Part shown: one piece after another, positions 521 through 21,047 of the stretch | Layout: the number at the start of each line of letters is the position of its first letter | Numbering within the stretch: position 1 is the stretch's first letter | Assembly: GCF_000381265.1 (NCBI RefSeq) | Contig: NZ_KB906253.1 | Span: 1-64,000 of the forward strand | Length of the DNA stretch: 64,000 nt | Source: Curvibacter lanceolatus ATCC 14669 | GTDB lineage: Bacteria > Pseudomonadota > Gammaproteobacteria > Burkholderiales > Burkholderiaceae_C | Reading direction: 5' to 3' | Translations under genes and position numbers: made by a program | Notes under the pieces: model-generated | What the model saw: the letters and a program-made list of their open reading frames with translations, nothing else | The model's database searches: none | Told to the model about the DNA's origin: nothing

Positions 521-1030
521 TCAGGGCGCGCGCCTGAACAGGGTTCTTTGGGTGTTGCGGAAGGCAGGCCGGACCCGGTCGCTCCAGGGGGTGGCCCGTA
601 CCTTCAACCAGGCCGGGCTGCCCAGCACTTCGGCGTGCACCAGGTCGTAGCAGGCCCAGTAGCGCGGCCGTCCGGGCTCCTGTCGATAGCGCACGGCCCT
701 GACGGTGCCGGGTACCGAGGCCAGGCCGGGCAGGTGCTCCTGCTCATACCAGGCATTGAACTCGGCCTCCATGTCGGGCAGCACATCGGTTTCCACCACG
801 TAGTGAAAGCCTGCCACTTGCTGGGCAGCGCTGCCCGACAGTGTTTGCAGGGTCTGCAGCGGGAACACGCTGTTGTTCGTGTCCTCCTGTACCCATTGCG
901 GCAGCTCATTCAGGTAGCGGTAGCTCAGATCCTGTTCCAAGGCGTTCCAGGCGCGCACGATCGGCGTTGCAAGCCCCTGGGACGGCCATGCGCTGGAGTG
1001 GGGGCGTTTGACAAGCCAGAGCTGTGACAT
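521..1030 (-). CDS. Small dimeric alpha/beta-barrel-like protein, function unknown
   Basis: A 169-residue soluble protein with no signal peptide. Its middle part has the look of an EthD/ABM-type ferredoxin-like barrel: FHYVVETDVLP, then an acidic helix (MEAEFNAWYEQEHLP), then LASVPGTVRAVRYR. The pattern of an aromatic residue and Tyr before EHLPGL is common in small enzymes and binding proteins of aromatic degradation. It lies between the carboxymuconolactone-decarboxylase-like gene (19 bp upstream) and the CoA-transferase, so it probably works in the same pathway. A protein with a similar helix is coded at 56659-57201. No specific reaction can be named. Confidence 0.6.
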   Translation of the reverse strand: MSQLWLVKRPHSSAWPSQGLATPIVRAWNALEQDLSYRYLNELPQWVQEDTNNSVFPLQTLQTLSGSAAQQVAGFHYVVETDVLPDMEAEFNAWYEQEHLPGLASVPGTVRAVRYRQEPGRPRYWACYDLVHAEVLGSPAWLKVRATPWSDRVRPAFRNTQRTLFRRAP

Positions 1031-2597: not shown

Positions 2598-3398
2598 TCA
2601 GTCGCAGCGAGCCGTCATGCCGCCGTCGACCACCAGTTCGGTCCCGGTCACAAAGCGGGCGTCGTCACTGGCCAGGAACAGCACAGCGCTGGCGGTGTCG
2701 CGACCATCGCCCATGAAGCCCAGCGGAATGCGCTTCAGGCGCTGGGCCAGCAAAGCGTCCACGTCGCCACCGGTGCGCTGTTTGGCCAGCCGGGTTTCGA
2801 CCATGGGCGTGTGCAGCTGACCGGGCACAACCGAGTTGACGCGCACACCATCGGGGGCATGCTGAACCGCCACGACTCGCGACAGGTGGATCACCCCGGC
2901 CTTGGTGGCTGCATAGGCGACCTGGGCACTGCCCGTGAAGCGAAGGCCGGAGGTCGAAGCGATGTTGACGATCGAGCCACTCTTCTTGGCGATCAGGGTC
3001 GGCAGCACATGCTTGCAGGTGAGGAAGACGCTTTTGAGGTTGATGTCGACTTGCAGGTCCCAGGTTTCCTCTGCCAATTCAACCGGTCCGCCGGCAGCCG
3101 ATCCGCCCACGTTGTTGACCAGGATGTCGATGGTGCCGTAGGTGTCGATGCAGGCCTTGGCCATGGCCGCCACGCTGTCGCTGCTGGTCACGTCGCACAC
3201 CCAGGGGGTGATGGAGGCGCGGGCATCGCCCGCCAGCTCCAGGGTCTCGTCCAGGCGGGCGCGGTCACGGTCCACGGCCAGCACTTTCGCGCCTTCTTCG
3301 GCCAGGCGGACCGCGATGGCACGGCCATTGCCCCAGCCCGCGCCCACGCAGCCGGCGCCGGTCACGATGGCTACTTTGTTTTCAAATCGACGGCTCAT
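2598..3398 (-). CDS. SDR-family oxidoreductase
   Basis: A 266-residue short-chain dehydrogenase/reductase. The N-terminal NAD(P)-binding loop reads TGAGCVGAGWGNGRA, slightly longer than the classical TGxxxGxG. An Asp ends beta-2 (AVDRD), which suggests NAD preference; NNVGG, IVNIAST and the catalytic AYAATKAG (YxxxK) follow, and VVDGGM closes the fold. Its start overlaps the stop of the upstream amidohydrolase by 4 bp (ATGA), so translation is probably coupled. It likely oxidises an alcohol intermediate of the pathway; the substrate is unknown. Confidence 0.92.
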   Translation of the reverse strand: MSRRFENKVAIVTGAGCVGAGWGNGRAIAVRLAEEGAKVLAVDRDRARLDETLELAGDARASITPWVCDVTSSDSVAAMAKACIDTYGTIDILVNNVGGSAAGGPVELAEETWDLQVDINLKSVFLTCKHVLPTLIAKKSGSIVNIASTSGLRFTGSAQVAYAATKAGVIHLSRVVAVQHAPDGVRVNSVVPGQLHTPMVETRLAKQRTGGDVDALLAQRLKRIPLGFMGDGRDTASAVLFLASDDARFVTGTELVVDGGMTARCD

Positions 3399-4234
3399 GT
3401 CAGGTCTCCAAATTGATAAAGGCGTTCAGGGTTGCTCACCATCAGGGCGTGGCGGGCGGCTTCGCTGGGGGCGATCTCGTGGATCAGGTCCACCAGTTGT
3501 TGTTCGTCGGGCACCGGGCCGGCATGGTTGGGGTGGGGCCAGTCGTTGCCCCACAGAACCCGGTCTCCGAACTCGTCCACCAAGGCTTTGGCAAAGGGCT
3601 GGGCGTCTGCATAAGGGGGCCCCAGCCGGGTGATGCGGTCCATGCCGCTGACCTTGACCCAGAAGCGGCGGTCCGCCATCAGGCGGCGCAAGGCCTTGAA
3701 GGCCGGTTGGTCCAGGCCGAGTGAGGCGTCCAGGCGCCCGATGTGGTCGATCACCACCGGCGTGGGCGAGCGCAGGAGCGCGGGCGCCATGTCCGTCAGC
3801 AGGCTGGGGTCGCCGTGGATCTGCAGGTGCCAGCCCAGGGGCTCGAAGCGCGCTGCGAGGGCCAGAACCTCTTCGATGGGGGTGCGGTGACCCAGGTGCC
3901 CCATGAAATTGAAGCGCACGCCTCGAAAGCCCGCGCTGTTGAGCCGATTCAGCTCGGCTTGTGCCACGTCGGTGGGGACCAGGGCAATGCCTCGGTACGT
4001 CTGTGGGCGATGGCGGATGGCATCTTCTGCGGCACTGTTGTCAAAGCCGTGGCAGGCCGACTGCACGACCACGCAGCGTTGCAGGCCCAGTTTGTCGTTC
4101 AGGGCGTACAGCGCCTCTTTGGGCGCGTCGGCGGCCGGGATGAAACTGGCGTTGGCCGCGTAGGGGAAGGTGTCCCGCGGGCCGAACACGTGGCAGTGCG
4201 CATTGCACGCCAAAGGGGGTAGGGGTGTGTGCAT
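3395..4234 (-). CDS. Amidohydrolase family protein (2-pyrone-4,6-dicarboxylate lactonase-like)
   Basis: A 279-residue TIM-barrel hydrolase of the amidohydrolase-2 group. Visible metal or active-site elements are NAHCHVFGP near the N terminus, QIHGDP, VIDHIG, WVKVSG and the C-terminal LWGNDWPHPN with the conserved Asp. This layout matches LigI (2-pyrone-4,6-dicarboxylate lactonase) and related sugar- or aromatic-lactone hydrolases. It is the first enzyme gene of the minus-strand operon and is 4-bp coupled to the SDR gene. The LigI-like identity is a family-level assignment. Confidence 0.82.
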   Translation of the reverse strand: MHTPLPPLACNAHCHVFGPRDTFPYAANASFIPAADAPKEALYALNDKLGLQRCVVVQSACHGFDNSAAEDAIRHRPQTYRGIALVPTDVAQAELNRLNSAGFRGVRFNFMGHLGHRTPIEEVLALAARFEPLGWHLQIHGDPSLLTDMAPALLRSPTPVVIDHIGRLDASLGLDQPAFKALRRLMADRRFWVKVSGMDRITRLGPPYADAQPFAKALVDEFGDRVLWGNDWPHPNHAGPVPDEQQLVDLIHEIAPSEAARHALMVSNPERLYQFGDLT

Positions 4235-4345: not shown

Positions 4346-5230
4346 TCAGCCGCGGAAGTCCAGTTCGGTGAGCAATTTGCTGGTCTCACGGATCAAGCGA
4401 TTGGCCGGTTTGGCCTTGGGCACGGCCAGCATCAAGGTGTTCCAGATTTCGGGCGGCCCGATGGGCGTGCGCGGCAGCGGCGGGCCTTGCAGGCCCAGCG
4501 CGACAGCGCTCTCCGGCAGGATGGTGCAACCCTGGCCGTGGGCCACCAGCGCCAGAACGGTGTTGACGGCGCCGACCTCGGCATGCACCTTGAGCTGCAC
4601 GCCTTGCGGGCGCAGTGCCGCGTCCACCAGGTTGCGGATGGCGTTGGGTGCGCTGGGCAGGATCAGGGGGTAGTCGGCCAGGCTGCTCAGGCTCACGCTC
4701 TTGGGCAGGCGGTGCCCCGGCGGGGCAATCAGCAACAGGCGCTCGCGTGAGAGTTGGGTGTAGCTCAGCTGGGGTGTGGCCGGCGGGTCGAACAAGAGCG
4801 CCAGATCCAACCGGCCGGCCATCAGGGACTCACGCAGGGGGATGCTCAGCCCTTCCAGGATGGTGATCACGGCACGTGGAAACCGCTCCCGGAAGCGGCG
4901 CACCAAGGGCACGCTGATCCCCAGGGCGACCCTGGGTGGCATGCCGATCACGATGCGCCCGCTTGGGCTGTCACCCATGTCACGCAACTCGTCGCGTGCG
5001 GCGCGTGACGACGCCAGCATGGTGCGCGCATGGACCAGCAGCGCCTCCCCCGCTTCGGTGGCGGTGACGCCGCGCCCGGTGCGGGTGAGCAGGCGTTGCC
5101 CCAGCTCTTCTTCCAGCAGCGCAATTTGCCGGCTGACGCTGGGCTGGGCCAGATTCAGTGCCACGGCAGCCCGGCTGAAACTGCCGCTTTCCACGACACA
5201 CACCAGGTACTCAAGTTGTTTCAGATCCAT
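4346..5230 (-). CDS. LysR-family transcriptional regulator
   Basis: A 294-residue LysR protein with an N-terminal winged helix-turn-helix (MDLKQLEYLVCVVESGSFSR, then LNLAQPSVSRQIALLEEELG) and the two-lobed effector domain (SGRIVIGMPP, LDLALLFDPP, GQGCTILPESAV). It sits upstream of, and in the same direction as, the catabolic operon (111 bp gap) and diverges from the dctA-like gene across 171 bp. It probably controls one or both in response to a pathway intermediate. The Nac/Cbl-like SFSRAA motif is general and does not identify the ligand. Confidence 0.93.
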   Translation of the reverse strand: MDLKQLEYLVCVVESGSFSRAAVALNLAQPSVSRQIALLEEELGQRLLTRTGRGVTATEAGEALLVHARTMLASSRAARDELRDMGDSPSGRIVIGMPPRVALGISVPLVRRFRERFPRAVITILEGLSIPLRESLMAGRLDLALLFDPPATPQLSYTQLSRERLLLIAPPGHRLPKSVSLSSLADYPLILPSAPNAIRNLVDAALRPQGVQLKVHAEVGAVNTVLALVAHGQGCTILPESAVALGLQGPPLPRTPIGPPEIWNTLMLAVPKAKPANRLIRETSKLLTELDFRG

Positions 5231-5401: not shown

Positions 5402-6695
5402 ATGAGACACCTCAAGCAGCTACACATCCAGGTTTTGATCGGCCTCCTGGCGGCCGTTGTGCTGGGCCTGACCGCACCGGAGACCGCGGCAGCCATGAAG
5501 CCGCTGGGTGATTTGTTCATCGCCTTGCTGAAGATGATGTTGGCCCCCATTGTCTTTTGCACGCTCATTCATGGCCTGGCCCATGTGCGTGACCTGGGCA
5601 AGCTGGGGCGCTTGGGCGCCAAGTCTCTGCTGTACTTCGAGGTGGTCAGCACGGTGGCCATGCTGGTGGGCTTTGTGATGGTCAACCTGTGCGAGCCCGG
5701 CGCCGGGCTGCATGCCGCCGGGATGGAACCCTCCAGTGCCGCCATGAAGGTGGCCAGCCAGTCGGGCTCGATCTCGGCCACGTCCTACCTGCTCAGCCTG
5801 GTTCCCCACACGCTGGTGGATGCCTTTGCCAAGGGCGACATCATGCAGGTGCTGATCGTGTCGCTGCTGGCGGGCTTTGCCCTGAACATGTCGGTGGGCA
5901 GCGATTCGGTGATCCTCAAGGGCATCGACGAGGCGCAGCGGGTGTTGTTCAAGATGCTTTCCTTCATCATGAAGCTGGCGCCCCTTGGGCGCCTTCGGCG
6001 CGATGGCGGCGGCCATCGGCAGCTACGGCAGTGCCACCTTGCTCTACCTGCTCAAGCTGGTGCTGGTTTATTACGGCGCTTCCCTGCTGTTTGTCGTGGT
6101 GGGGCTGGGCAGCATCTGCTGGTTCATCGGCCTGTCGCTGTGGCCGGTGGTGCGCCTGATCCGTGACGAGATCCTGCTGGTCTTCGGCACCGCCTCCGGC
6201 GAAGTGGCCTTTCCCCTGCTGATCGCCAAGCTGGAGCAGGCGGGCTGCGATGAAGCCGTGGTGGGCTTTGTTCTGCCGGCGGGCTACAGCTTCAACCTCG
6301 ACGGCACCTCGATCTACATGGCGATCGCCGTGGGCTTCATTGCCCAGGCCACCGACACGCCGTTCTCCTGGCTTCAGCAACTGGCCTTGCTGGGGGTGTT
6401 GAGCCTGACCTCCAAGGGGGGCACCACGGTGGCTGGCGGGGCCTTTGTGAAGCTGGCAGCCACGCTGCAATCGGTCAAGAGTCTGCCCATCAGCGGCCTG
6501 GGCCTGTTGTTCGGCATCGATCGATTGATGGCCACGGCCACCGCCCTCACCAACATCGTTGGCAACACCGTCGCCGTGTTCGCCATTGCGCGCTGGGAAG
6601 GCTCGTTCGATGCCGATAAATACCGCGCCCTCACGGGCAGCGTGGCGCGCCGCAGCTGGCTGGGCCCCAAGGCGTCGGCCAGGCGCGCCGATTGA
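5402..6695 (+). pseudogene. dctA: C4-dicarboxylate/cation symporter (DctA type), frameshifted
   Basis: Two overlapping frames together give a full DctA-family (DAACS) symporter of about 430 residues. The first frame runs from 5402 to about 5986 and ends its homology at SFIMKLAPLG; the second resumes at about 5987 with GAFGAMAAAIGSYG and holds the signature VLPAGYSFNLDGTSIYMAI, SKGGTTVAGGAFVKLAATL and GIDRLMATATALTNIVGN. One extra base within CCCCTTGGGC (5981-5990) explains the break. Removing it gives 431 codons including the stop, close to the 428 residues of E. coli DctA. Either a recent inactivating mutation or a sequencing error. It precedes two exported proteins on the same strand and diverges from a LysR gene. 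Confidence 0.85.
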
Positions 6696-6761: not shown

Positions 6762-8360
6762 ATGAAAAGGTACGACAACAGACTCAAGTCCATGGTGTGG
6801 CCCGCTTTGCTGGCCCTGGCAGCGATGGGCCATCCGGCCCAGGCGGCTGAACTGGAGGTGCTGGCAACGGGTGCCGTTTCCGGAGCCTTCAAGACCGTGG
6901 TGGCCGACTATGAAAAGCAGTCGGGCCATCGCCTGAAGATGTCCTGGGGCCCTTCGCTGGGTCAGTCGCATGAGGCGATTCCGGTTCGAATCAGGAGCGG
7001 TCAGGCGCCCGACGTGCTGATCATGGTGTCCACCGAGCTGGACCGCCTGATCCGTGAGCAGCGGTTCACGGCGTCGGCCCGTCTCGACGTGGCCCAGTCG
7101 GGGGTGGGTGTCGGAGTCAAGGCGGGCAGTCCGGTGCCCGACATCTCGGATGTCGCCAAGCTGCGCCAGGCCTTGCTTGCCGCACCTTCGGTGGCCTATT
7201 CGGAAGGGGCCAGCGGCACCTACATCCAGAACGTGCTGCTCAAGCGACTGGGCGTCGAGCATGAGGTGGCCGCCAAGCGCCACCTGGTGCCGGGCAAGCA
7301 GTTGGTCGGTGAGGTGCTGGCCGAGGGCGGCGCGGCACTGGGTCTGCAGCAGATCAGCGAGTTGCGGGTGGTGCCAGGGGTGCACTACGTCGGCCCGTTG
7401 CCGGAGGAGGTTCAAAAGATCTCCGTGTTGACCGCGGCCGTCTCGGGCAAGAGCACCCACTCTGCCGAGGCCCTGGATTTTCTGCGTTACCTGGGTTCGC
7501 CGGCAGCTGTGGCGGCCTTCCAGCGCAGCGGCCTGGACCTGCCTGACGTGCCTGCCACCGTGGTCGAACGCCGCCTGGTCCGTAGCGGCCAGGTGCAGAT
7601 CGAGGTGCTGAGCCAGGGGCAGGGGCCCGCGATCGTGATGCTGCCTTCGCTGGGGCGTTCCGTTCGCGACTTCGACCTGGTGGCCGCACGATTGGCCTCG
7701 CAGGGTTTTCGTGTGATCCGGCCTGAGCCTCGTGGCATTGGTGCCAGCCAGGGGCCTCTGGAGGGCTTGACCCTGCACGACTTCGCCGCCGATGTAGCAG
7801 CGGTGTGCGATGCCGAGAAGACCGGTCCGGCCGTCATTTTGGGGCATGCCTGGGGCAGCCAACCGGCGCGCATGCTGGCGGTTGACCGGCCAGACCTGGT
7901 CAAAGGCCTGATCATGGCCGCAGCTTCGGCCGGCAAGCTTCCGCCGGGCTCCACCGAGAAGCCCTATGGGCGTCTGCGCGATGCCATTGACGGCTCGGGC
8001 AACCCGGCGCTGCCGCAGGCCCAGCGTCTGCAATACCTGAAGCAGGCCTTTTTTGCTCCCGGCCATGATCCGAGCGAATGGCTGGAGGGCTGGTACGAGG
8101 CGAACCACCATGCCGAGGCCCACGCCCGCAATGTCACGCCCATCGACAGCTATTTTTCGGGCGGCAGCACCGCCCCCATCCTGGATCTGCAGGGCGAATT
8201 CGATGCGGTGGTGGTCAAGGATGTGATGAAGGCCTATTTGGGTGAGCGGGTGCAGGTCGACGTGGTCAAAGGGGCAGGGCACGCCATGTTCCCCGAGCGT
8301 CCCGCGCAGGTCTCCGAGGCCGTGGCCCGCTTCGCACGCCAGTTGAACGCCAGTCGCTGA
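6762..8360 (+). CDS. Exported fusion: ModA-like binding domain plus alpha/beta-hydrolase domain
   Basis: A 532-residue protein with a signal peptide (residues about 1-28, cleavage near AQA). Residues about 30-260 form a molybdate-binding-protein-like (type 2 periplasmic) domain: LATGAVSGAFKTVVADYEK, APDVLIMVS and GEVLAEGGAALGLQQ. Residues about 265-532 form an alpha/beta-hydrolase fold: IVMLPSLGRSVRDF, RPEPRGIGAS, the nucleophile elbow GHAWG (361-365), an acid in LDLQGEFDA and a His in GAGHAMFP. The nucleophile position is Ala363 instead of Ser, Asp or Cys. The hydrolase half closely resembles the next gene. Binding of a small molecule in the periplasm is likely; hydrolysis by a normal triad is not. 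Confidence 0.85.
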   Translation: MKRYDNRLKSMVWPALLALAAMGHPAQAAELEVLATGAVSGAFKTVVADYEKQSGHRLKMSWGPSLGQSHEAIPVRIRSGQAPDVLIMVSTELDRLIREQRFTASARLDVAQSGVGVGVKAGSPVPDISDVAKLRQALLAAPSVAYSEGASGTYIQNVLLKRLGVEHEVAAKRHLVPGKQLVGEVLAEGGAALGLQQISELRVVPGVHYVGPLPEEVQKISVLTAAVSGKSTHSAEALDFLRYLGSPAAVAAFQRSGLDLPDVPATVVERRLVRSGQVQIEVLSQGQGPAIVMLPSLGRSVRDFDLVAARLASQGFRVIRPEPRGIGASQGPLEGLTLHDFAADVAAVCDAEKTGPAVILGHAWGSQPARMLAVDRPDLVKGLIMAAASAGKLPPGSTEKPYGRLRDAIDGSGNPALPQAQRLQYLKQAFFAPGHDPSEWLEGWYEANHHAEAHARNVTPIDSYFSGGSTAPILDLQGEFDAVVVKDVMKAYLGERVQVDVVKGAGHAMFPERPAQVSEAVARFARQLNASR

Positions 8361-8447
8361 GCGCGTTTCCACCTCTTACTGCCCTGTTTCCGTTCCTATC
8401 CCTGCCCGGACCCCACCTCAAGAGGCCCGGGCCCTTGAAAGCACGCC

Positions 8448-9341
8448 ATGAAAATTGCCAAGCTCATTCTTCTCTCCGGCTTGATCGCCTGGTCCTCCTG
8501 CAGCATGGCCGCCGATGCGGTGGCCACTGCCTTGCAGCACAAGGTGATCGAGAAGGGCCCTGTTCGCATCGAAGTCACTGAACAAGGGCAAGGCCCTGCC
8601 ATCGTGATGCTGCCCTCGCTGGGCCGCTCGGGTCGTGACTATGACAAGGTAGCCGAACGGCTGGCCTCCGAAGGCTTTCGCGTGCTGCGGCCTGAGCCCC
8701 GTGGCGTCGGCCAAAGCCAGGGCCCCATGCACGGCTTGACCGTGCATGACTTTGCCGCCGACGTTGCCATGGTGATCGATGCCGAGGTCAAGGCCCCGGT
8801 GGTGGTGGTCGGGCATGCATGGGGCAACTTCGCGGCCCGCATGCTTGCCACAGACCGCCCTGACCTGGTGGCCGGCGTGGTGGTGGCCGCAGCTTCCGCC
8901 GGCAAGGTGCCGCCGGGCTCAAAAGAGCTGCCCATCGGCCCTGAGATGCGCAAGGCGATCGACGGCCCCAGCAACCCGGCCTTGTCTGAAGAGCAGCGTC
9001 TGGAATACCTGAAGATCGCGTTTTTCGCCCCTGGCAACGACCCCCGGGTGTGGCTGGGCGGCTGGCATGAGGCCACCCATGAGGCGCAATCGCATGCCCG
9101 CAACGTCACCCCGGTGGACGACTACTTTGCTGCCGGCACCGCCCCCATCCTGGATCTGCAGGCCGAGTACGACCCCGTGGCCCCGCGCCGGTTTTCGAAC
9201 GTCCTGAAGTCCATGCTGGGCGAGCGGGTGACCATCGTCGTGATCAAGAACGCCAGCCATGCCTTGGCACCTGAGCAGCCCCAGGCCATGGCAGACGCGA
9301 TTGCCGACTTTGCCAAGAAGGTGTTTTCGGCGCGCCGTTGA
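8448..9341 (+). CDS. Exported alpha/beta-hydrolase-fold protein lacking a normal nucleophile
   Basis: A 297-residue protein with a signal peptide (MKIAKLILLSGLIAWSSCSM, cleavage near SMAA). It aligns throughout with the C-terminal half of the upstream fusion: IVMLPSLGRSGRDYDKV, RPEPRGVGQSQGP, the elbow GHAWG (122-126), LDLQAEYDPVA and a C-terminal NASHALAPEQP with the expected His. The elbow residue is Ala124, coded GCA here and GCC in the fusion, so the Ala is kept although the codon differs. The gene starts 87 bp after the fusion gene and probably belongs to the same transcript. Role unknown; a periplasmic binding, lyase-like or pseudo-enzyme role is possible. Confidence 0.85.
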   Translation: MKIAKLILLSGLIAWSSCSMAADAVATALQHKVIEKGPVRIEVTEQGQGPAIVMLPSLGRSGRDYDKVAERLASEGFRVLRPEPRGVGQSQGPMHGLTVHDFAADVAMVIDAEVKAPVVVVGHAWGNFAARMLATDRPDLVAGVVVAAASAGKVPPGSKELPIGPEMRKAIDGPSNPALSEEQRLEYLKIAFFAPGNDPRVWLGGWHEATHEAQSHARNVTPVDDYFAAGTAPILDLQAEYDPVAPRRFSNVLKSMLGERVTIVVIKNASHALAPEQPQAMADAIADFAKKVFSARR

Positions 9342-9398: not shown

Positions 9399-10322
9399 TC
9401 AAGCCTTGAACACCACACTCTGCCGCGGGCGCTCGTCCACCGTCAGCGAGAACACGTCCGGCCGTGCATAGTGGCCCACCACATCGAAGTCGTAGCGGGC
9501 ACGGGTCAGCTCGGCGGTGTCGATCTGGGCCACCAGCAAGCCGGTTTCGTGCTTGAGCGGGCCGGCCAGCACATCGCCCAGGGGGCCCACGATCATGCTG
9601 TTGCCGCCGATCAGGGGCAGTTCGGGGTCCCAGTGCGGGGCGTTCACGCCCAGGGCCTGGGGTGAGGGCTGTACCTGGCAGGCGCTGATCACAAAGCAAC
9701 GCCCCTCGTGGGCGATGTGGCGCATCGACGACTGCCAGATGTCGCGCGCGTCCACGGTGGGGGCGCACCAGATCTGCACGCCCTTGGCGTACATGGCGGT
9801 GCGCAGCAGGGGCATGTGGTTCTCCCAGCAGATCACGGCGCCGACGCGGCCGGCGGGCGTGTCGAGCACCGGCAGGGTGGAGCCATCGCCCTGGCCCCAG
9901 ATCAGCCGCTCGGTGCCCGTGGGCATGAGCTTGCGGTGCTTGGCCACCAGGCCCCCTTCAGGGGCGAAGAACAGGGCGGTGCAGTACAAGGTGTTGCCTG
10001 CGCGTTCGATCACACCGATCACGATGTGGGCCTGGCAGCGCTCGGCCAGGCCGGCCAGCGCCTCGGTCTCGGGGCCGGGCACATCGATGGCGTTGTTGTA
10101 GTAGCGCTCGAAGGCCTCCCGCCCCTCGGGCAGGCGGTAGCCCAGGTAGGTGCCGAAGCCCTCGCCCTTGGGGTAGCCGCCCAGCAAGGCCTCGGGCATC
10201 ACCACCAGGCTGGCGCCGGCGGCGCGGATGGCATCCTCATGCGACAGGATCTGCGCCAGGGTGGCGGCCTTGCCCTCGGGGTGGGCGCCGATTTGCAGCG
10301 CGGCAACAGTGGATCGGGTCAT
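9399..10322 (-). CDS. Nitrilase / carbon-nitrogen hydrolase
   Basis: A 307-residue nitrilase-superfamily enzyme that converts nitriles to carboxylic acid and ammonia, or hydrolyses related amides. The triad is visible as Glu44 ([11 protein letters not shown]), Lys131 ([21 protein letters not shown]) and Cys165 (VICWENHMP). The GQGDG and CWEN environment is typical of true nitrilases. The ATG at 10322 starts the conserved VAALQIG strand; an ATG 24 bp upstream would add an unconserved tail. It diverges from a LysR gene across 87 bp. This is one of two nitrilases in the window and is not closely similar to the Nit1 enzyme at 14430-15443. Confidence 0.92.
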
Positions 10323-10409
10323 GTGAACTCGCTTTCGAAACAACAAGGTGATTGCGTCATCCTCGGCCTTTGGCGATCATCAATCAACCGATTGATCAGA
10401 CAAGCTGAT

Positions 10410-13546: not shown

Positions 13547-13926
13547 GGGGGGCTTTCGGGTGGGTGGGGTGGGCTGCCGGATTGATTGCATCAAGCATGC
13601 CACGCGGGCCGGGCCATCGCGCGCCAAGGCCGCACCAAAGCGGCTGTCCGGGCAGGCCGGCTGATCGCCTTTGGTGCCGAGCCGGCCAATGATGGAGTGC
13701 ATTGATCGCACGGCAAATCAAGGCTGTTTCGGGGTCTTCAGGCAGCGTCTCTTGGCTCGGAGGGCGGCTGTACTTTTTTTCTGCTGCCCGGGGGCAATGC
13801 ACGGGCGCTTGATCGCAGATTGATCGCATCGGCCAGGCCCAAACGGGCATGTGGCCTGCAATGAAGAAGGCAGACACGGGGCATTCAGCCCGGTGTCTAC
13901 CCACCAACCCTTCATGGAGCAGCCAC
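13547..13926. promoter_or_regulatory. Divergent mocR / Nit1-operon regulatory region with TTGATCGCA repeats
   Basis: This 380-bp gap contains three exact copies of TTGATCGCA at 13702-13710, 13809-13817 and 13820-13828, and a near copy TTGATTGCA at 13582-13590. The last two exact copies start 11 bp apart, about one helical turn, in direct orientation. Direct repeats are typical of MocR operators. The Nit1 operon has a GGAG ribosome-binding site at 13916-13919. No small gene was seen here. Confidence 0.6.
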
Positions 13927-14409
13927 ATGCCTAAAGTCACCCAACCCGCCCACCAAAAAGGCGATTTCCTTGTCGACTACGAAGAGAAAGTCTTTGAAGA
14001 TGTGAAGGCCGCCCCGGGCGAGAAAGCCCTGGTCACCTTTCACACCATCGCCTTCGAAGGCTCGATCGGCTTCGTCAACCTGCTGCAGGCCACCCGCCTG
14101 TTGCGCAAGGGCTTCGAGACCTCGGTGCTGCTGTATGGCCCCGGCGTCACCCTGGGCCTGCAACGCGGCTTTCCCACCCTGGGCGACGAGGCCTTCCCCG
14201 GTCATCAAAACCAGAACAACCAGCTGATCAAGTTCATGGCCGAAGGTGGCAAGGTCTATGCCTGCCGATTCGCGCTGCAGGCTTTGTACGGCCATGGCGA
14301 AGGCTCGCTGATCCCGGGCATCCGCCCCATCAGCCCGCTGGATGTGCTCGACATCAAGCTGCTGCACCGCAAAGAGGGTGCCTTGATCATCGACACCTGG
14401 ACCGTCTGA
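13927..14409 (+). CDS. MSMEG_0572/Sll0783-family nitrogen starvation response protein
   Basis: A 160-residue protein that is the usual first member of the Nit1 nitrilase cluster. It starts [22 protein letters not shown] and contains [53 protein letters not shown] and [19 protein letters not shown]. The resemblance to DsrE/YchN-like folds ([25 protein letters not shown]) is visible but no cysteine pair is present. Homologues are induced by nitrogen limitation in cyanobacteria and mycobacteria. The start has a GGAG site 7 bp upstream. The nitrilase begins 20 bp after its stop. Confidence 0.9.
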
Positions 14410-14429
14410 GTCGAGTGGGGAACATCACC

Positions 14430-15443
14430 ATGACCCAAGCTCGAATCGTCCGTGCCGCCGCTGTCCAGATCGCACCCGATCTGGAGACCCCCACCGGAAC
14501 GCTGGACCGGGTCTGCAATGCCATCGATGAGGCCGCCCGCAAGGGCGCCGAGCTGGTGGTGTTCCCCGAAACCTTTGTTCCGTACTACCCCTATTTTTCG
14601 TTCGTCCTGCCGCCTTGCCAGCAGGGCGCGCCCCATCTGCAGCTCTACGAGCGTGCCGTGGTGGTGCCCGGCCCGGTGACCCAGGCCGTGGCCGAGCGGG
14701 CCCGGGCCCGCAGCGTGGTGGTGGTGCTGGGGGTGAATGAACGCGACCATGGCAGCCTGTACAACACGCAGCTGATCTTCGATGCCGATGGTGCCCTGAA
14801 GCTCAAGCGCCGCAAGATCACCCCCACCTACCACGAGCGCATGGTCTGGGGTCAGGGCGATGCGCAGGGCCTGCGCGTGGTCGACACGGCCGTGGGCCGC
14901 GTCGGTGCCCTGGCCTGCTGGGAGCACTACAACCCGCTGGCCCGCTACGCGCTGATGACCGAGCACGAAGAGATCCACTGCGCCCAGTTCCCGGGCTCGC
15001 TGGTGGGCCCCATCTTTGCCGATCAGATGGGCGTGACCATCCGCCACCACGCGCTCGAGTCGGGCTGCTTCGTGGTCAACGCCACCGGCTGGCTGACCGA
15101 TGCCCAGATCGAGTCCGTGACCCCGGATGTGAGCCTGCAACGCGCGCTGCGCGGCGGCTGCCACACCGCCATCGTCTCGCCCGAAGGCAAGTACCTGGCC
15201 GAGCCCCTGACCGAGGGCGAGGGCATGGTGATTGCCGATCTGGACCTCGCCCTGGTCACCAAGCGCAAGCGAATGATGGACTCGGTGGGGCACTACGCCC
15301 GCCCCGAACTGCTGAGCCTGGCCATCAACCGGCGCCCGGCCCAGACCCATTTCGAGATGCCGGGTGTCCAGCCCGCCTCTTCGGCGACCGCCGCTGAGCC
15401 AGTCGCCGATCCCGCGCCCGTTTCCACCCTTGTTCAGGAGTGA
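14430..15443 (+). CDS. Nit1-cluster nitrilase (Nit6803 family)
   Basis: A 337-residue nitrilase with triad Glu47 ([12 protein letters not shown]), Lys129 ([21 protein letters not shown]) and Cys163 ([13 protein letters not shown]); Glu137 is the additional conserved glutamate. The [14 protein letters not shown] segment and the CWEHYNP box fit the Nit1 (Nit6803) type. It presumably hydrolyses a nitrile made or processed by the other cluster enzymes, releasing ammonia. ATG 14430 follows a GGGG site at 14417-14420. The C-terminal 25 residues are Ala/Pro-rich. Members of this type form large oligomers, which is family knowledge. Confidence 0.95.
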
Positions 15444-15449
15444 TCCACC

Positions 15450-16568
15450 ATGAGCCCTCAAGCCGCCTTGATGCCCGCGCCGGACACCCGGCACCTGATG
15501 AGTGAGCTGCAGTCGCTGGGCCTGCGCCTGGTCGACACCACGGCTGGCGTGGCCAGCCGGCGCGGCGGTGCCGGCCCGTCCGACCACAAGGCCGTGACGG
15601 TGGATGGCCACACCATCATGGTGCCCGTGCACACCTCCACGGCCTGGTCTTCGCCCTTTGTGGCCCAGGCCCCCGATGCCCAGGGCCGCAGCGTGATCAC
15701 CCGCGATGCGATCCCGATTGCCAGCGTCAGCTTCCCGAGGCAGCCACGCTTCTATGGGCTGCAGACCCTGGACGGCGTGCCCTACTCGCACATCGCCACC
15801 CTGCACAGCGCCGACGTGTTGGCCACCACCGTGCTGCAGACCTGCATCCGCTATGAAAGCCGCAAGAAGACCTGCCAGTTCTGCTCCATCGGCCAGTCGC
15901 TGGCGGCAGGCCGCACCATCGCGCACAAGACGCCCCAGCAACTGGCCGAGGTGGCCCGCATGGCGGTGCTGCTCGACGGTGTGAAGCACATGGTGCTGAC
16001 CACGGGCACGCCGAACGCCACCGACCGGGGTGCGGCCATCCTGTGCGACAGTGCCCGGGCCATCAAGGCCGCGGTCGACCTGCCCATCCAGGGGCAGTGC
16101 GAGCCGCCCGATGACGACGCCTGGTTCGCCCGCATGAAGGCGGCCGGCATCGACACCCTGGGCATGCACCTGGAGGCGGTCACGCCCGCCGTGCGCGAAC
16201 GCATCATGCCGGGCAAGGCCTCGGTGCCGATTGCGCGTTACCTGAGCGCCTTCGAGGCCGCGGTGCAGGTTTTCGGGCGGGGCCAGGTCAGCAGCTACAT
16301 CCTGGCCGGCCTGGGCGACAGCCGCGAGGCCATTCTGGACATGAGCGCCCGTCTGGCCGCGCTGGGGGTCTACCCCTTCGTGGTGCCCTTTGTGCCCATC
16401 AGCGGCACCCCGCTGGAGAGCCACCCCGCGCCCAGCCCCGATTTCATGCGCTCGGTGCTCGAGCCCCTGGGCCACATCGTGCGCGAGGCCGGGCTGCGCT
16501 CCAGCGACATCAAGGCGGGCTGCGGCAAATGCGGCGCCTGCTCGTCGATGTCGGTCTACGAGTCCTGA
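15450..16568 (+). CDS. MSMEG_0568-family radical SAM protein
   Basis: A 372-residue radical SAM enzyme of the Nit1 cluster. The probable cluster cysteines are in [17 protein letters not shown], spaced C-x9-C-x2-C, not the textbook C-x3-C-x2-C. Downstream barrel segments are [33 protein letters not shown] and [10 protein letters not shown], and a second Cys group ([11 protein letters not shown]) closes the protein and may hold an auxiliary cluster. It starts 6 bp after the nitrilase stop. The reaction is unknown; it is presumed to build or modify the nitrile-containing compound. Confidence 0.93.
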
Positions 16569-16613
16569 ACCGAGTCCTGAACCGGAACAAAGCAGAGCAC
16601 CTGCGGAGGCCCC

Positions 16614-17192
16614 ATGAGCAGCCTGATCACCCCCCCATTCACCCACCCCGCCGGGGCACGGGCCCCGGCTCCCGCCTGGCCGGCCTTCCATGTGCGCCAG
16701 GCCGTGCTCGACGAAGAGATCGCGCAGGCCATGGCCCTGCGCCGCGCCGTGTTCTGCGACGAGCAGGGCATCTTCGCGGGCAGCGACCGTGATGACATCG
16801 ACCTGCAGGCCCGCCTGTTGATTGCTGCCGCCTATGACGTGCAGCAGGCCCACAGCAGCGTGCTAGGCACCGTGCGCATCCACGAAGCCTCACCGGGCCT
16901 CTGGTGGGGCTCACGGCTGGCGGTGCAACGCGCCATGCGCCGTCAGGCCAGGCTGGGCGCCCAGCTGATCCGCCTGGCGGTCTGCACCGCCCATGGCCTG
17001 GGCTGCGAAACCTTTCTGGCCCACGTGCAGGTGCAGAACGTGCCCCTGTTCGAGAAGCTGCACTGGCGCTCGCTGGACACCTCCCTGGCCCATGGCCGCG
17101 AGCACCACCTGATGCAGGCCGACCTGGCGCACTACCCACCTTGCCACGACCCCCTGATGGGCTTTTTTGTCGAAGCCGGAGGTCAATCATGA
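16614..17192 (+). CDS. MSMEG_0567/Sll0786-family GNAT acetyltransferase
   Basis: A 192-residue GNAT-fold acetyltransferase. The fold is seen in [52 protein letters not shown] and [22 protein letters not shown] (the acetyl-CoA loop region), with [15 protein letters not shown] near the end. A clear GGAGG site precedes ATG 16614. Its stop overlaps the start of the AIR-synthase-like gene by 4 bp. In the Nit1 cluster it probably acylates a biosynthetic intermediate; the substrate is unknown. The N-terminal 20 residues are Pro/Ala-rich and poorly conserved-looking. Confidence 0.9.
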
Positions 17193-18202
17193 GTGCCTTG
17201 CCCGAGCTCGTGGCCGCGCTGCGCGACAGCCGCGGTTTTGCCCACAAGCGCGATATCAGCGCCGTGGTGAACTGCTTTGACGATCTCTTGGTGCAGGGTG
17301 TGGGCCAGATGGACCAGGCCGTGCCCCTGGGTGACGACTGTGCCGCACTGCCCGATGGCCAGGGCGGCTACCAACTGCTGGCCATTGAGGGGCTGGTGGA
17401 AGACTTCATCACCCGCATGCCCTGGTTTGCCGGCTACAGCAGCGTGATGGTCAACATCAGCGACATCTACGCCATGGGCGGCCGGCCCACGGCGGTGGTC
17501 AACGCGCTGTGGGGGCAGGGGGCGGGCGCCGAGACCCAGAAGATGCTGGCCGGCATGGCGGCCGCCTCGCAACGCTATGGCGTGCCCATCGTGGGCGGGC
17601 ACAGCAACCTGCGCTCCGAACGGCCTCAGCTGGCGGTCTCCATCCTCGGCCACGCCAGGAAGTTGCTCAGCAGCTTCCGGGCCCGCCCGGGCGATCAACT
17701 GCTGATGGCGGTGGACCTGCGCGGCCAGTGGCAGGAGCCGTTTCCGTACTGGAACGCCTCCACCGAGGCGCCCGCCGAGCGCCTGCGTGCCGACCTGGAG
17801 CTGCTGCCCGAGATCGCCGAGGCGGGCCTGTGCGAGGCCGCCAAGGACATCAGCATGGCCGGCACCCTGGGCACGGCCCTGATGCTGCTGGAGTGCTCGG
17901 GCGTGGGGGCCATCGTCGATCTGGACGCGATCCCCCGGCCCGCGGGCGTGCCCCTGCTGCGCTGGCTGACCGCGTTCCCGAGCTATGGCTTCATCCTCAG
18001 TGTGCGGCCTGAGCATGTGGCGGCCGTGCAGCAGCGCTTCGAGGCGCGGGGTCTGGCCTGCGCCGCGGTGGGCGAGGTCAAGGCCGCGCGGCAGCTGATC
18101 GTGCAGCAGGGCCCTGAATGGGCCTTGTTGTGGAACCTGGCCGAGCAGCCTTTCATTCAGGGCACACCGGCACGGGGTCTTGAGCTCGGGAGCCTGGCAT
18201 GA
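17189..18202 (+). CDS. Sll0787-family AIR-synthase-like protein
   Basis: A 337-residue protein of the PurM/AIR-synthase fold, expected to bind ATP. Marks are VPLGDDCAALPDGQG, MVNISDIYAMGGRPTAVVNALWG, MAAASQRYGVPIVGGHSNLRS and AKDISMAGTLGTALMLLECSGVGAIVDLD. Members such as PurM, ThiL and SelD use ATP to phosphorylate or activate a substrate. The ATG at 17189 overlaps the upstream stop (ATGA), and the stop overlaps the glycosyltransferase start in the same way, so these genes are translationally coupled. It is likely to activate an intermediate in the Nit1 pathway. Confidence 0.92.
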   Translation: MSALPELVAALRDSRGFAHKRDISAVVNCFDDLLVQGVGQMDQAVPLGDDCAALPDGQGGYQLLAIEGLVEDFITRMPWFAGYSSVMVNISDIYAMGGRPTAVVNALWGQGAGAETQKMLAGMAAASQRYGVPIVGGHSNLRSERPQLAVSILGHARKLLSSFRARPGDQLLMAVDLRGQWQEPFPYWNASTEAPAERLRADLELLPEIAEAGLCEAAKDISMAGTLGTALMLLECSGVGAIVDLDAIPRPAGVPLLRWLTAFPSYGFILSVRPEHVAAVQQRFEARGLACAAVGEVKAARQLIVQQGPEWALLWNLAEQPFIQGTPARGLELGSLA

Positions 18203-19404
18203 GAGCAAATCCGCTGCGCATTGCCCTGCTCACCCATTCCACCAACCCGCGTGGCGGGGTGGTTCATTGTCTGGAGCTGGCCGACGCGCTCTGCGCCCAG
18301 GGCCATGCGGTGACGGTGCATGCCCCCGGTGTGCCCGGCCAGCCCCTGTTTCGGAGCAGCCGGGCCGCTGTGCGCATCCTGCCCGTGCCGGCCTCGGGCC
18401 CCGGCCTGCGCGAGGTGGTTCAGGCCCGCATCCACAGCTTTGTGCAGGGCCTCTCGGAAGCCGGGCGGCCTGACTTCGATGTGTTCCATGCCCACGATGG
18501 CATTGGCGCCAACGCCTTGCTGGCCTTGCGCCGCCAGGGGCAGGTCGGGGCCTATGTGCGCACCGTGCACCATGTGGATGCCGGCTTTGGTGACCCGGTG
18601 GTGGATGCCTGGGAGGAGCAGAGCATCCGCCAGGCCGACCGCCTGGTCTGCGTCAGCGAATCGTGGGCACCCAAGTTGCGCGAGCGCTTTCAGCGCGAGG
18701 CCCAGGTCATCCACAACGGGGTGGATCTGCGCCGCTTCAGCCCCGTGCCGCGGGCCTCCGATGCCGACAGGGATCTCAATCTGGCCCGGCGCCTGGGCCT
18801 GGGCACCGGCCCGGTCTACCTGATGGTGGGCGGCATCGAGGCGCGCAAGAACACCGTGGGCGCCCTGCAGGCCTTTGTGCAGCTGCGAGCCCGCGTGCCG
18901 CAGGCCCAGTTGCTGATAGCCGGCGGCGCCAGCCTGCTGGACCACGGCCTCTACCGGCAACGCTTTGAGCGGGTTCTGGCCCAGGCCGGCCTGCAGGCCG
19001 GGCCCGGCCAGCCCGTGGTGCTGAGCGGCGTGCTGGCCGATGCCGACATGCCCGCCCTGTACCGGCTGGCCACGGCGCTGTTGTTTCCATCGCTGCTGGA
19101 AGGCTTTGGTCTGGCCATCGTCGAGGCCATGGCCAGCGGGGTGCCCGTCATCGTCTCCCAGCAGGAGCCCTTCACCGATTTTCTGGGGCCTGACGACGCC
19201 TTGTGGGTCGACCCGTACTCACCGCCCTCCATGACCGAGGCCCTGCTGCAGGTGCTGTTCCAGGGCACGGCCCAGGCGCTGCGTGAGCGCGGCCTGCCGC
19301 TGGCGCGCCGCTTTGATTGGGCCGCCGCCGCCCGGGCCCATATCGCCCTGTATGCGGCCCTGGCACAGCCTTGCCGACTGCTTTCCCAACCGTCTTTTTG
19401 CTGA
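18199..19404 (+). CDS. MSMEG_0565-family glycosyltransferase
   Basis: A 401-residue GT4-type (GT-B) glycosyltransferase. The N-terminal domain shows RIALLTHSTNPRGGVVHCLELADAL and FDVFHAHDGIGANALL; the C-terminal domain has VHHVDAGF, HNGVDLRRFSP, MVGGIEARKNTVGALQAF and the nucleotide-sugar site LLFPSLLEGFGLAIVEAMASGVPVI with the conserved E-x7-E. It probably transfers a sugar to the Nit1 pathway product. The start overlaps the AIR-synthase-like stop by 4 bp. The sugar donor and acceptor are unknown. Confidence 0.94.
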   Translation: MRANPLRIALLTHSTNPRGGVVHCLELADALCAQGHAVTVHAPGVPGQPLFRSSRAAVRILPVPASGPGLREVVQARIHSFVQGLSEAGRPDFDVFHAHDGIGANALLALRRQGQVGAYVRTVHHVDAGFGDPVVDAWEEQSIRQADRLVCVSESWAPKLRERFQREAQVIHNGVDLRRFSPVPRASDADRDLNLARRLGLGTGPVYLMVGGIEARKNTVGALQAFVQLRARVPQAQLLIAGGASLLDHGLYRQRFERVLAQAGLQAGPGQPVVLSGVLADADMPALYRLATALLFPSLLEGFGLAIVEAMASGVPVIVSQQEPFTDFLGPDDALWVDPYSPPSMTEALLQVLFQGTAQALRERGLPLARRFDWAAAARAHIALYAALAQPCRLLSQPSFC

Positions 19405-19414
19405 GGAGATTCCC

Positions 19415-19711
19415 ATGCCTGAAATGTATTTCACCGTGAAATGGCCCGATGGCGCCCAGGAGCGCTGCTACTCCCCCTCGCTGGTCATCACCGACCACCT
19501 GGCCGTGGGCGCGGACTACGCGCTGGGCGATTTCGTGGCCCGCTGCGATGCCGCCTTGAGCGAGGCTTCTGAGCGCGTGCAGCAGAAGTACGGCTACTTC
19601 TGCTCCAGTGCCGTCGACCAGCTGGGCCAGATCAAACACCGTGCCCAGGCCTTCGAGTCAGACGCTGCGCCCCGCGTGCAGGTGCTGGCCTTCACCCCCG
19701 GATCCCGTTGA
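19415..19711 (+). CDS. MSMEG_0570-family nitrogen starvation response protein
   Basis: A 98-residue small protein starting MPEMYFTVKWPDGAQERCYSPS, with VGADYALGDFVARCDAALSEASERVQQKYGYFCSSAVDQLGQIK. This is the typical short member of the Nit1 cluster, often between the glycosyltransferase and the flavoprotein genes, as here. It has a good AGGAG site (19403-19407) before ATG 19415. Two Cys residues (Cys17, and Cys in YGYFCSS) are present. No fold-level function is known; an MbtH-like carrier or partner role is possible (KWPDGxQExCYSPSLVI is reminiscent), but this is speculative. Confidence 0.88.
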   Translation: MPEMYFTVKWPDGAQERCYSPSLVITDHLAVGADYALGDFVARCDAALSEASERVQQKYGYFCSSAVDQLGQIKHRAQAFESDAAPRVQVLAFTPGSR

Positions 19712-19733
19712 TTTTTCCAAGGAGTACAAACCC

Positions 19734-21047
19734 ATGTCCACCCTCTTCAAGAACCAGGAACACCTGCTGAATCAAAAAGACTACCCCGTGGTGGTGGTCG
19801 GTGGCGGTCAGGCCGGCCTGTCGGTCAGCTACTACCTTCAGCAGCAAGGCATCGAACACATCGTGCTCGAGAAGAAGTTCGTCGCCCACGCCTGGGCCAA
19901 GGACCGTTGGGACACCTTCTGCCTGGTCACCCCCAACTGGCAGTGCCGCCTGCCCGACTTCCCCTATGCGGGCGACGACCCCGAAGGCTTCATGCTCAAG
20001 GATCAGATCGTCGAGTACGTGCAGGCCTTTGCGCTGAAGACCCGCCCGCCGGTGGTGGAGGGGGTCAGCGTGAACCACGTCAGCCGACAAAAGAGTGGTG
20101 ACCTGCTGGTGGCGACCAGCGCGGGCGATTTCCACACCCGCCACGTCATCGTCGCTACCGGTGGGTATGACCTGCCCATCATCCCGGCCTACGCCGAGCG
20201 CCTGCCCAAGCACATCAAGCAGATCCATTCGGTGGACTACCGCAACCCCGAACAGTTGCCCGAGGGCGAGGTGCTGGTGGTGGGCACGGGCCAGTCGGGT
20301 GTGCAACTGATGGAAGACCTGCACCTGGCGGGCCGCAAGGTGCACCTGTGCGTGGGCCCGGCGCCCCGCTCGCCACGGGTCTACCGTGGGCGCGAGTCCA
20401 CCGCTTGGCTGATGGACATGGGCGTGTACGAGCTGACGGTGGATCGCCACCCCCTGGGCGAGAAGGCCCGCGAGCGCACCAACCACTACATGACCGGGCG
20501 CGACGGCGGCCATGAAATCGACCTGCGCAAGTTCGCCCTGGAAGGCGTCAAGCTGTACGGCAGCATGGCCGACATCGAAGGCAGCACGCTGCGCTTCCTG
20601 CCCGATCTGGAAAAGAACCTGGACGACGCCGATGAGGTCTACGTGGGCATCCGCAGGGACATCGATCGCTACATTGCGGCCCAGGGCATCGACGCCCCGG
20701 TCGAGCCCGATTTCGTCAAGGCTTGGCGCCCCGAGCAAGAGGTGCTGGCGCTGGACGCCGAGGCCGCCGGCATCACCACCATCATCTGGGCCATCGGCTT
20801 TCGCCCCGATTACCGCTGGATCGAGCTGCCCGCCTTCGATGGCCGCGGCCACCCGAAATACGAGCGCGGCGTGTCGCCCGTGCCGGGCCTGTACTTCCTG
20901 GGGCTGCCCTGGCTCAACACCTGGGGCTCGGGCCGCTTCCTGGGCATTGCCGAAGACGCGCAGTACCTGGCCGATGTGATTGCCGGGCGCGAGGCAGGGG
21001 CCGATACGGCAGCGCAGGGCCGTGAGCACGAGGCGTTGGCTGCCTGA
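19734..21047 (+). CDS. MSMEG_0569-family flavin-dependent oxidoreductase
   Basis: A 437-residue flavoprotein monooxygenase-like enzyme. The FAD Rossmann motif is VVVVGGGQAGLSVSYYL; a second dinucleotide motif VLVVGTGQSGVQLMEDL indicates NADPH binding. FVAHAWAKDRWDTFCLVTPNWQ and IIWAIGFRPDY..WIELP resemble class-B monooxygenases such as YUC-type and N-hydroxylating enzymes. It ends the Nit1 operon. An AAGGAG site precedes ATG 19734. It could oxidise an amine or sulfur or carry out oxime/nitrile formation, which would fit a nitrilase partner; that is inference. The length is normal for the family. Confidence 0.93.
   Translation: MSTLFKNQEHLLNQKDYPVVVVGGGQAGLSVSYYLQQQGIEHIVLEKKFVAHAWAKDRWDTFCLVTPNWQCRLPDFPYAGDDPEGFMLKDQIVEYVQAFALKTRPPVVEGVSVNHVSRQKSGDLLVATSAGDFHTRHVIVATGGYDLPIIPAYAERLPKHIKQIHSVDYRNPEQLPEGEVLVVGTGQSGVQLMEDLHLAGRKVHLCVGPAPRSPRVYRGRESTAWLMDMGVYELTVDRHPLGEKARERTNHYMTGRDGGHEIDLRKFALEGVKLYGSMADIEGSTLRFLPDLEKNLDDADEVYVGIRRDIDRYIAAQGIDAPVEPDFVKAWRPEQEVLALDAEAAGITTIIWAIGFRPDYRWIELPAFDGRGHPKYERGVSPVPGLYFLGLPWLNTWGSGRFLGIAEDAQYLADVIAGREAGADTAAQGREHEALAA

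Follow-up and report, generated by a model that had tools for sequence, protein, structure and literature searches.

An alpha/beta-hydrolase family with alanine at the nucleophile position in organic-acid gene clusters of Curvibacter lanceolatus and other bacteria

What can an alpha/beta-hydrolase (ABH) do when alanine stands in the place of its catalytic nucleophile? The question is raised by a stretch of 64,000 nucleotides from Curvibacter lanceolatus ATCC 14669 (contig NZ_KB906253.1, hereafter the window), in which two successive forward-strand genes encode such folds. The first (6762-8360, +) specifies a fused protein of 532 amino acids with a signal-like start, in which a ModA-like periplasmic-binding-protein domain (6825-7538, +; residues 22-259 by profile A5) is followed by an ABH domain, here called ABHf (7569-8345, +; residues 270-528 by profile A1, 375 bits). 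The second (8448-9341, +) specifies ABH2, a stand-alone ABH of 297 amino acids with its own signal-like N-terminus; ABHf sits behind that of the binding domain. Segments of this kind were judged by eye here and below. An earlier note, made from the DNA letters, proposed a periplasmic receptor or an unusual lyase, not a normal esterase. As judged from their sequences, ABHf and ABH2 are members of a distinct ABH family that lacks the covalent nucleophile and keeps the Asp-His pair.

ABH proteins are routinely named hydrolases from their fold alone, and the five annotated relatives are labelled 'alpha/beta hydrolase' or 'alpha/beta fold hydrolase'. If a family keeps Asp and His but not the nucleophile, its proteins would wrongly be labelled esterases; such a family would also offer a natural test of the capacity of this fold without covalent catalysis. 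Its gene clusters point to an organic-acid pathway that combines lactonases resembling 2-pyrone-4,6-dicarboxylate hydrolase with binding-protein-dependent capture.

The nucleophile site and its family

The GHAWG motif of the nucleophile elbow is read directly from the sequence in both domains, in open reading frames (ORFs) placed exactly as first noted: at 7842-7856 (+) in ABHf, where the Ala codon of residue 363 is GCC (7848-7850), and at 8811-8825 (+) in ABH2, where that of Ala124 is GCA (8817-8819). Re-reading gives Ala in both cases and no Ser codon. Pfam finds SBP_bac_11 (5.7e-34, residues 31-258) and Abhydrolase_1 (7.2e-17) in the one ORF of the 532-residue protein, bearing out the proposed fusion, and Abhydrolase_6/1 (4.7e-17, 6.6e-17) in ABH2. 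With Abhydrolase_1 scores of 62.3 and 62.4 bits against a curated cut-off of 25.8, ABHf and ABH2 belong to the fold superfamily. The two are 62% identical. A recent tandem duplication was considered as their origin and is ruled out, since 5 of the 16 named-genome loci (L032, L033, L034, L039 and L040) hold both paralogue types, which form separate branches of a quick tree. In that tree, made without three short rows (L026 2049-3080, L047, and L032 1-708), the fused-domain clade of 12 rows (SH-aLRT 100) is spread over several bacterial families.

Relatives were gathered from three overlapping sets, each of which takes in the window's own genome. With few candidates scored in each genome, a match was found in 21 of 399 same-family genomes (E up to 1e-25), in 9 of 398 from the phylum (1e-40) and in 6 of 300 from the order (1e-28). 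Sixteen genomes, picked because they already matched, were searched deeply. The scan of named genomes gave 16 loci, and that of plasmids 15 records, for 8 of which loci were retrieved. The 94 domains left once repeats had been removed were aligned with the profile of the family and fell into two groups separated by a wide gap, 66 family domains scoring at least 212 bits and 28 other ABHs about 86 or less. The best PDB chain reached only 70.9 bits on the same profile, and none came near a family score.

At the nucleophile site, the 66 family domains carry Ala in 64 cases, Thr in two and Ser in none, so that neither Ser, Asp nor Cys is found there. Of the 28 other ABHs, one is a fragment without this site; the remaining 27 have Ser in 19 cases, Asp in four, Gly in two and Ala in two, one of these last being Escherichia coli RutD. 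The 64 family alanines use all four codons (GCC 43, GCA 11, GCG 5, GCT 5); a sequencing error or a lone odd gene is thereby ruled out, in line with the suggestion that differing codons mark a kept change. Asp242 and His271 (ABH2 numbering) are each present in 66 of 66 domains. Thus the acid and His positions are retained as proposed, and the view that these are no normal esterases is well supported. Alanine at an ABH nucleophile site is rare, not unique, being found also in E. coli RutD and in AqdC2.

Ordinary ABHs carry an HG motif in the oxyanion loop. In the family it is replaced by PS followed by an invariant Arg, Arg60, found in all 64 rows with a residue there (two of the 66 have gaps); in the column of the G, Ser occupies 61 of 66 family rows and Gly 14 of the 28 other ABHs. 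Arg131 is likewise nearly constant (65 of 66, Lys in one), as are Trp202 and Trp206 (64 of 66 each). A sister subgroup of two (L028 1456-2568, -; L072 1483-2424, -) shows GKTYG in place of GHA[WFYH]G, so that Lys replaces His and Thr takes the nucleophile position. Outside the family, Ala or Gly at the elbow was met in L029 2459-3289 (+; HLVGIAGGG), which adjoins a family member, in L004 1477-2256 (-; VLVGQGVGG) and in L101 1273-2265 (+; ALVGHGMGA).

An AlphaFold2 model of mature ABH2 (pLDDT 91.2, pTM 0.91; model number equals residue minus 24, the count beginning at residue 25) gives these residues the following places. Ala124 (model 100) falls between strand 94-99 and helix 102-112, which is the nucleophile elbow, and Asp242 (model 218) and His271 (model 247) follow the last two strands, 210-215 and 237-242, respectively. 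Arg60 (model 36) lies in the loop that connects strand 27-31 with helix 38-50, the ordinary place of the HG motif. Among the 50 solved chains listed by Foldseek, query TM-scores range from 0.63 to 0.78 and many ABHs are about equally close. The fused protein was also modelled (pLDDT 90.7), its lower pTM of 0.67 leaving the relative arrangement of the two domains uncertain.

Gene clusters and the ModA-like domain

The clusters in which the family genes repeatedly occur are those of organic-acid catabolism, and they also hold lactonase-like genes and genes for periplasmic binding proteins. Among the 16 named-genome loci, a short-chain dehydrogenase (SDR) gene is found in 14, an Amidohydro_2 gene in 13, a DctA-type gene in 11 and a ModA-like gene in 14 (15 ORFs); L032, at a contig end, and L047 are without the recurring genes. 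An SMP-30/gluconolactonase-type gene was found in both loci scanned for one (L034, L036). A second cluster type, examined in 41 loci, carries TctC proteins. In short flanks, about 1.5 kb at the longest, 22 of 35 family loci have a TctC- or ModA-like neighbour, as opposed to 1 of 23 for the other ABHs (Fisher p 5e-6). This comparison excluded three duplicate control loci and those with longer flanks, drew about half of its controls from the window's own genome, and used loci that are not independent by descent. The remaining 13 family loci have no adjacent binding-protein gene.

On a Variovorax plasmid (L049), the block that flanks the ABH genes in the window (521-1030, 1050-1571, TctC, SDR, Amidohydro_2 and LysR) recurs at 56-89% identity and adjoins an ABHf orthologue and a TctC gene, with ECH, CoA-ligase and MmgE/PrpD genes near. 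In the window, therefore, this block is joined to the DctA/ModA-type unit. The annotation of L048 lists the same ECH, CoA-ligase and MmgE/PrpD gene types, and its MmgE/PrpD protein is closest to IDS-epimerase and next to cis-aconitate decarboxylases. A different arrangement was observed on Rhizobium leguminosarum plasmid pRlvC (L053 9267-12848), where the gene of a family member immediately precedes a RidA gene and has a D-amino acid dehydrogenase gene nearby, reminiscent of the RutC-RutD pair.

Where the ModA-like domain occurs in the named-genome loci, which is in 14 of them, a gene of its own encodes it, and among the loci tested only the window was found to have it joined to ABHf in one ORF. 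In L033, L034 and L039 the binding-protein gene ends, and a separate ABHf gene begins with its own signal- or lipobox-like segment. The ABHf orthologues of L009-L013, which are 61-66% identical to ABH2 and 63-66% to ABHf, start without a signal-like segment.

The binding domain itself shows profile similarity to ModA (8.9e-15), and molybdate-binding proteins make up the best 15 of its 38 profile matches in the PDB. A functional ModA was rejected, the domain scoring 25.4 bits on the modA model against a cut-off of 62.5. Unlike the setting of ModA, the scanned neighbour genes include no ABC permease, and DctA and carboxylate enzymes stand there instead. Apart from the window's own, its two best-scoring relatives in 299 same-family genomes (in G131 and G174) adjoin a thiolase gene (L165, L166), an MmgE/PrpD gene and an ECH-matching gene; in L165 the thiolase scores above the 3-oxoadipyl-CoA thiolase cut-off, and the ECH-matching gene is a hydratase/dehydrogenase. 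These neighbours point to carboxylic-acid catabolism rather than molybdate. The domain may be related to aconitate isomerase, an enzyme of the periplasmic-binding-protein fold characterised in Pseudomonas sp. WU-0701, a lead which the data neither support nor exclude; no chain of that name occurs among those 38 matches. On contig C2 of the window's own genome, a second ModA-like relative (L164 4943-5782, -) is immediately next to a TctC gene, an arrangement that hints at the handling of carboxylates by this subgroup of binding proteins.

Acid-base chemistry and rival explanations

The best explanation of these features, which we judge to have slightly better than an even chance of being right, is that the family comprises non-covalent Asp-His acid-base enzymes working on a (poly)carboxylate within an organic-acid cluster. 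With Ser changed to Ala and HG to PS-Arg, and the Asp-His pair kept, the His, polarised by Asp, would serve as general base or acid towards a (poly)carboxylate that the Arg of the oxyanion loop holds in place; with no acyl-enzyme formed, the proton movement could drive tautomerisation, isomerisation, decarboxylation or C-C/C-O lysis. A pair acting as general base without an acyl-enzyme would be expected to leave this pattern, with Ser lost and both Asp and His strictly kept, and the invariant Arg, taken with the polycarboxylate setting, suggests that the substrate is a carboxylate. Such an enzyme would act beside the lactonase resembling 2-pyrone-4,6-dicarboxylate hydrolase, the SDR and the carboxylate transporters. 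In the DctA-type clusters, the ABH would be exported and partnered by a ModA-like domain that captures the same acid, and in the window protein the pair would have become one polypeptide. More tentatively, and with the chances rather against it, the window may hold a two-domain periplasmic enzyme of an unnamed, nucleophile-free acid-base family that processes its substrate before DctA-type uptake. HOD/AqdC are the documented precedent for such dyad-only chemistry, and RutD is a second natural case of Ala. As far as the literature searches reach, none of the titles listed for nucleophile-less ABHs is about this family, and no paper was found to combine five of the six gene names of the cluster.

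Several points weigh against this explanation. The reaction and substrate, the acid-base chemistry, the role of Arg, the export and the coupling to the binding domain are what we infer. The family was gathered by similarity to an Ala-bearing query with a profile made from 29 of its own members, and for this reason the score gap weighs more than the count of Ala. Thr, as carried by the two GKTYG members, is in principle a possible nucleophile. Arg85 and Asp105 occur also in 19 and 20 of the 28 other ABHs, so that among the polar residues only Arg60 and Arg131 are distinctive, and Arg60 could be structural. A DctA or ModA-like match was found in none of the 41 loci of the second set, and five of these (L123, L124, L127, L130, L132) have no neighbour of the reference gene set; since the clusters differ between subgroups, one substrate for all is unlikely. 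Even in HOD the Ser is not simply neutral, as its replacement by Ala (S101A) raises KM 60-fold with kcat unchanged (PMC10548524).

Could the fold have lost catalysis altogether and become a binding protein or receptor, which passes its ligand to a transporter or senses it and so helps the periplasmic binding protein? The fusion to a ModA-like domain, the excess of adjacent binding-protein genes and the signal- or lipobox-like N-termini at some loci would all suit such a role. Nevertheless, Asp and His would be needless for a pure binder and are invariant, and the starts of L009-L013 argue against a purely periplasmic receptor, the function being evidently not bound to the periplasm. We therefore regard a receptor as unlikely, and as a weaker candidate than an acid-base enzyme of the non-covalent kind. 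Because the invariant pair implies an acid-base function and those orthologues lack a signal-like segment, the lyase half of the original proposal fits better than its receptor half.

The family might also consist of hydrolases or hydratases that work by direct attack of water, the Asp-His pair activating it to hydrolyse an ester, lactone or enamine without an acyl-enzyme, as RutD may do. RutD (E. coli b1009, TIGR03611) shares the ABH fold and has a natural Ala at its elbow (GHALG), along with an Asp and a His that line up with the family pair. Its model (3.6e-8) and that of PcaD (2.1e-17) are among the NCBIfam relatives of ABH2, a RidA gene stands beside the L053 relative, and lactonase-like genes belong to the clusters. 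However, RutD scores 38.8 bits on the family profile, lies outside the family in the quick tree, differs in the sequence of the oxyanion loop and sits in the rut operon of E. coli. We hold water attack to be improbable. RutD is reportedly active as an enzyme; its E. coli record reads "putative aminoacrylate hydrolase". ABHf and ABH2 were rejected as RutD orthologues at 27.3 and 33.1 bits, about 205-211 below the cut-off of 238.5. The RutD model found no match above cut-off in the whole of the window's own genome, a RutD search of 274 genomes of the class gave none at E up to 1e-55, and no Rut protein is named among the best NCBIfam matches listed for seven other neighbouring window proteins, the rest having had no scan aimed at rut genes. 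PcaD, 3-oxoadipate enol-lactonase (TIGR02427), is among the best NCBIfam matches of ABHf (6e-15) as of ABH2 and has organic-acid catabolism in common with the family; it has a Ser nucleophile, and ABHf and ABH2 reach only 55.3 and 63.3 bits against its cut-off of 255.85.

Finally, a cofactor-free dioxygenase of the HOD/AqdC type would use the His-Asp pair to deprotonate a substrate that then reacts with O2. As described in PMC10548524, the pair of HOD deprotonates the substrate while the nucleophile is dispensable, and AqdC has Ala; AqdC2 of Rhodococcus BG43 bears it at the elbow (AHAHG), and AqdC1 has Ser. The acid residue lies elsewhere in the fold, though: HOD pairs H251 with D126, near the elbow residue S101 (PMC10548524), and the family acid follows the penultimate long strand, 118 residues past the elbow. 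Moreover, AqdC acts on quinolones, and quinolone degradation is named in none of the five plasmid neighbourhoods, out of eight retrieved, that carry annotation. This alternative seems very improbable. Orthology with AqdC/HOD was also rejected, AqdC1 and AqdC2 falling outside the family at 16.5 and 26.9 bits against its minimum of 212.

Other genes of the window

Upstream of the fused gene lies a DctA-type (Sodium:dicarboxylate symporter) gene (5402-6695, +), assigned by ORF and Pfam, which is spread over two overlapping frames (5402-6166 and 5985-6695). These frames match consecutive stretches of the Pfam SDF model (1-184 and 184-387), which shows the gene to be broken by either a frameshift or an error of assembly. 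The C4-dicarboxylate-type transporter first noted beside the hydrolases is therefore present, with the refinement that it is split here. Divergent from the DctA, binding-protein and ABH genes is a LysR-type regulator gene (4346-5230, -; ORF, Pfam).

The conserved block continues on the same strand with an Amidohydro_2 protein (3395-4234, -), whose best solved relative in the PDB comparison is 2-pyrone-4,6-dicarboxylate hydrolase (5e-69), and the SDR (2598-3398, -), which has a 66-71% identical gene in 14 of the 16 named-genome ABH loci. Next come a TctC/Bug periplasmic binding protein (1600-2562, -), with terephthalate-binding protein and BugD among its best solved relatives, and a carboxymuconolactone-decarboxylase-family protein (1050-1571, -). 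The last member (521-1030, -) has no Pfam or NCBIfam match and a 56% identical gene in L049.

On the other side, ABH2 is adjoined by a nitrilase-superfamily gene (9399-10346, -), which at 192.7 bits on the Nit6803 model (cut-off 502.6) is of another kind. A nitrilase cluster proper lies at 13849-21044 (+) and encodes an MSMEG_0572 family protein, a Nit6803 nitrilase, an MSMEG_0568 radical SAM protein, an MSMEG_0567 GNAT protein, an MSMEG_0565 glycosyltransferase and an MSMEG_0569 flavoprotein, all six scanned proteins scoring above their NCBIfam cut-offs.

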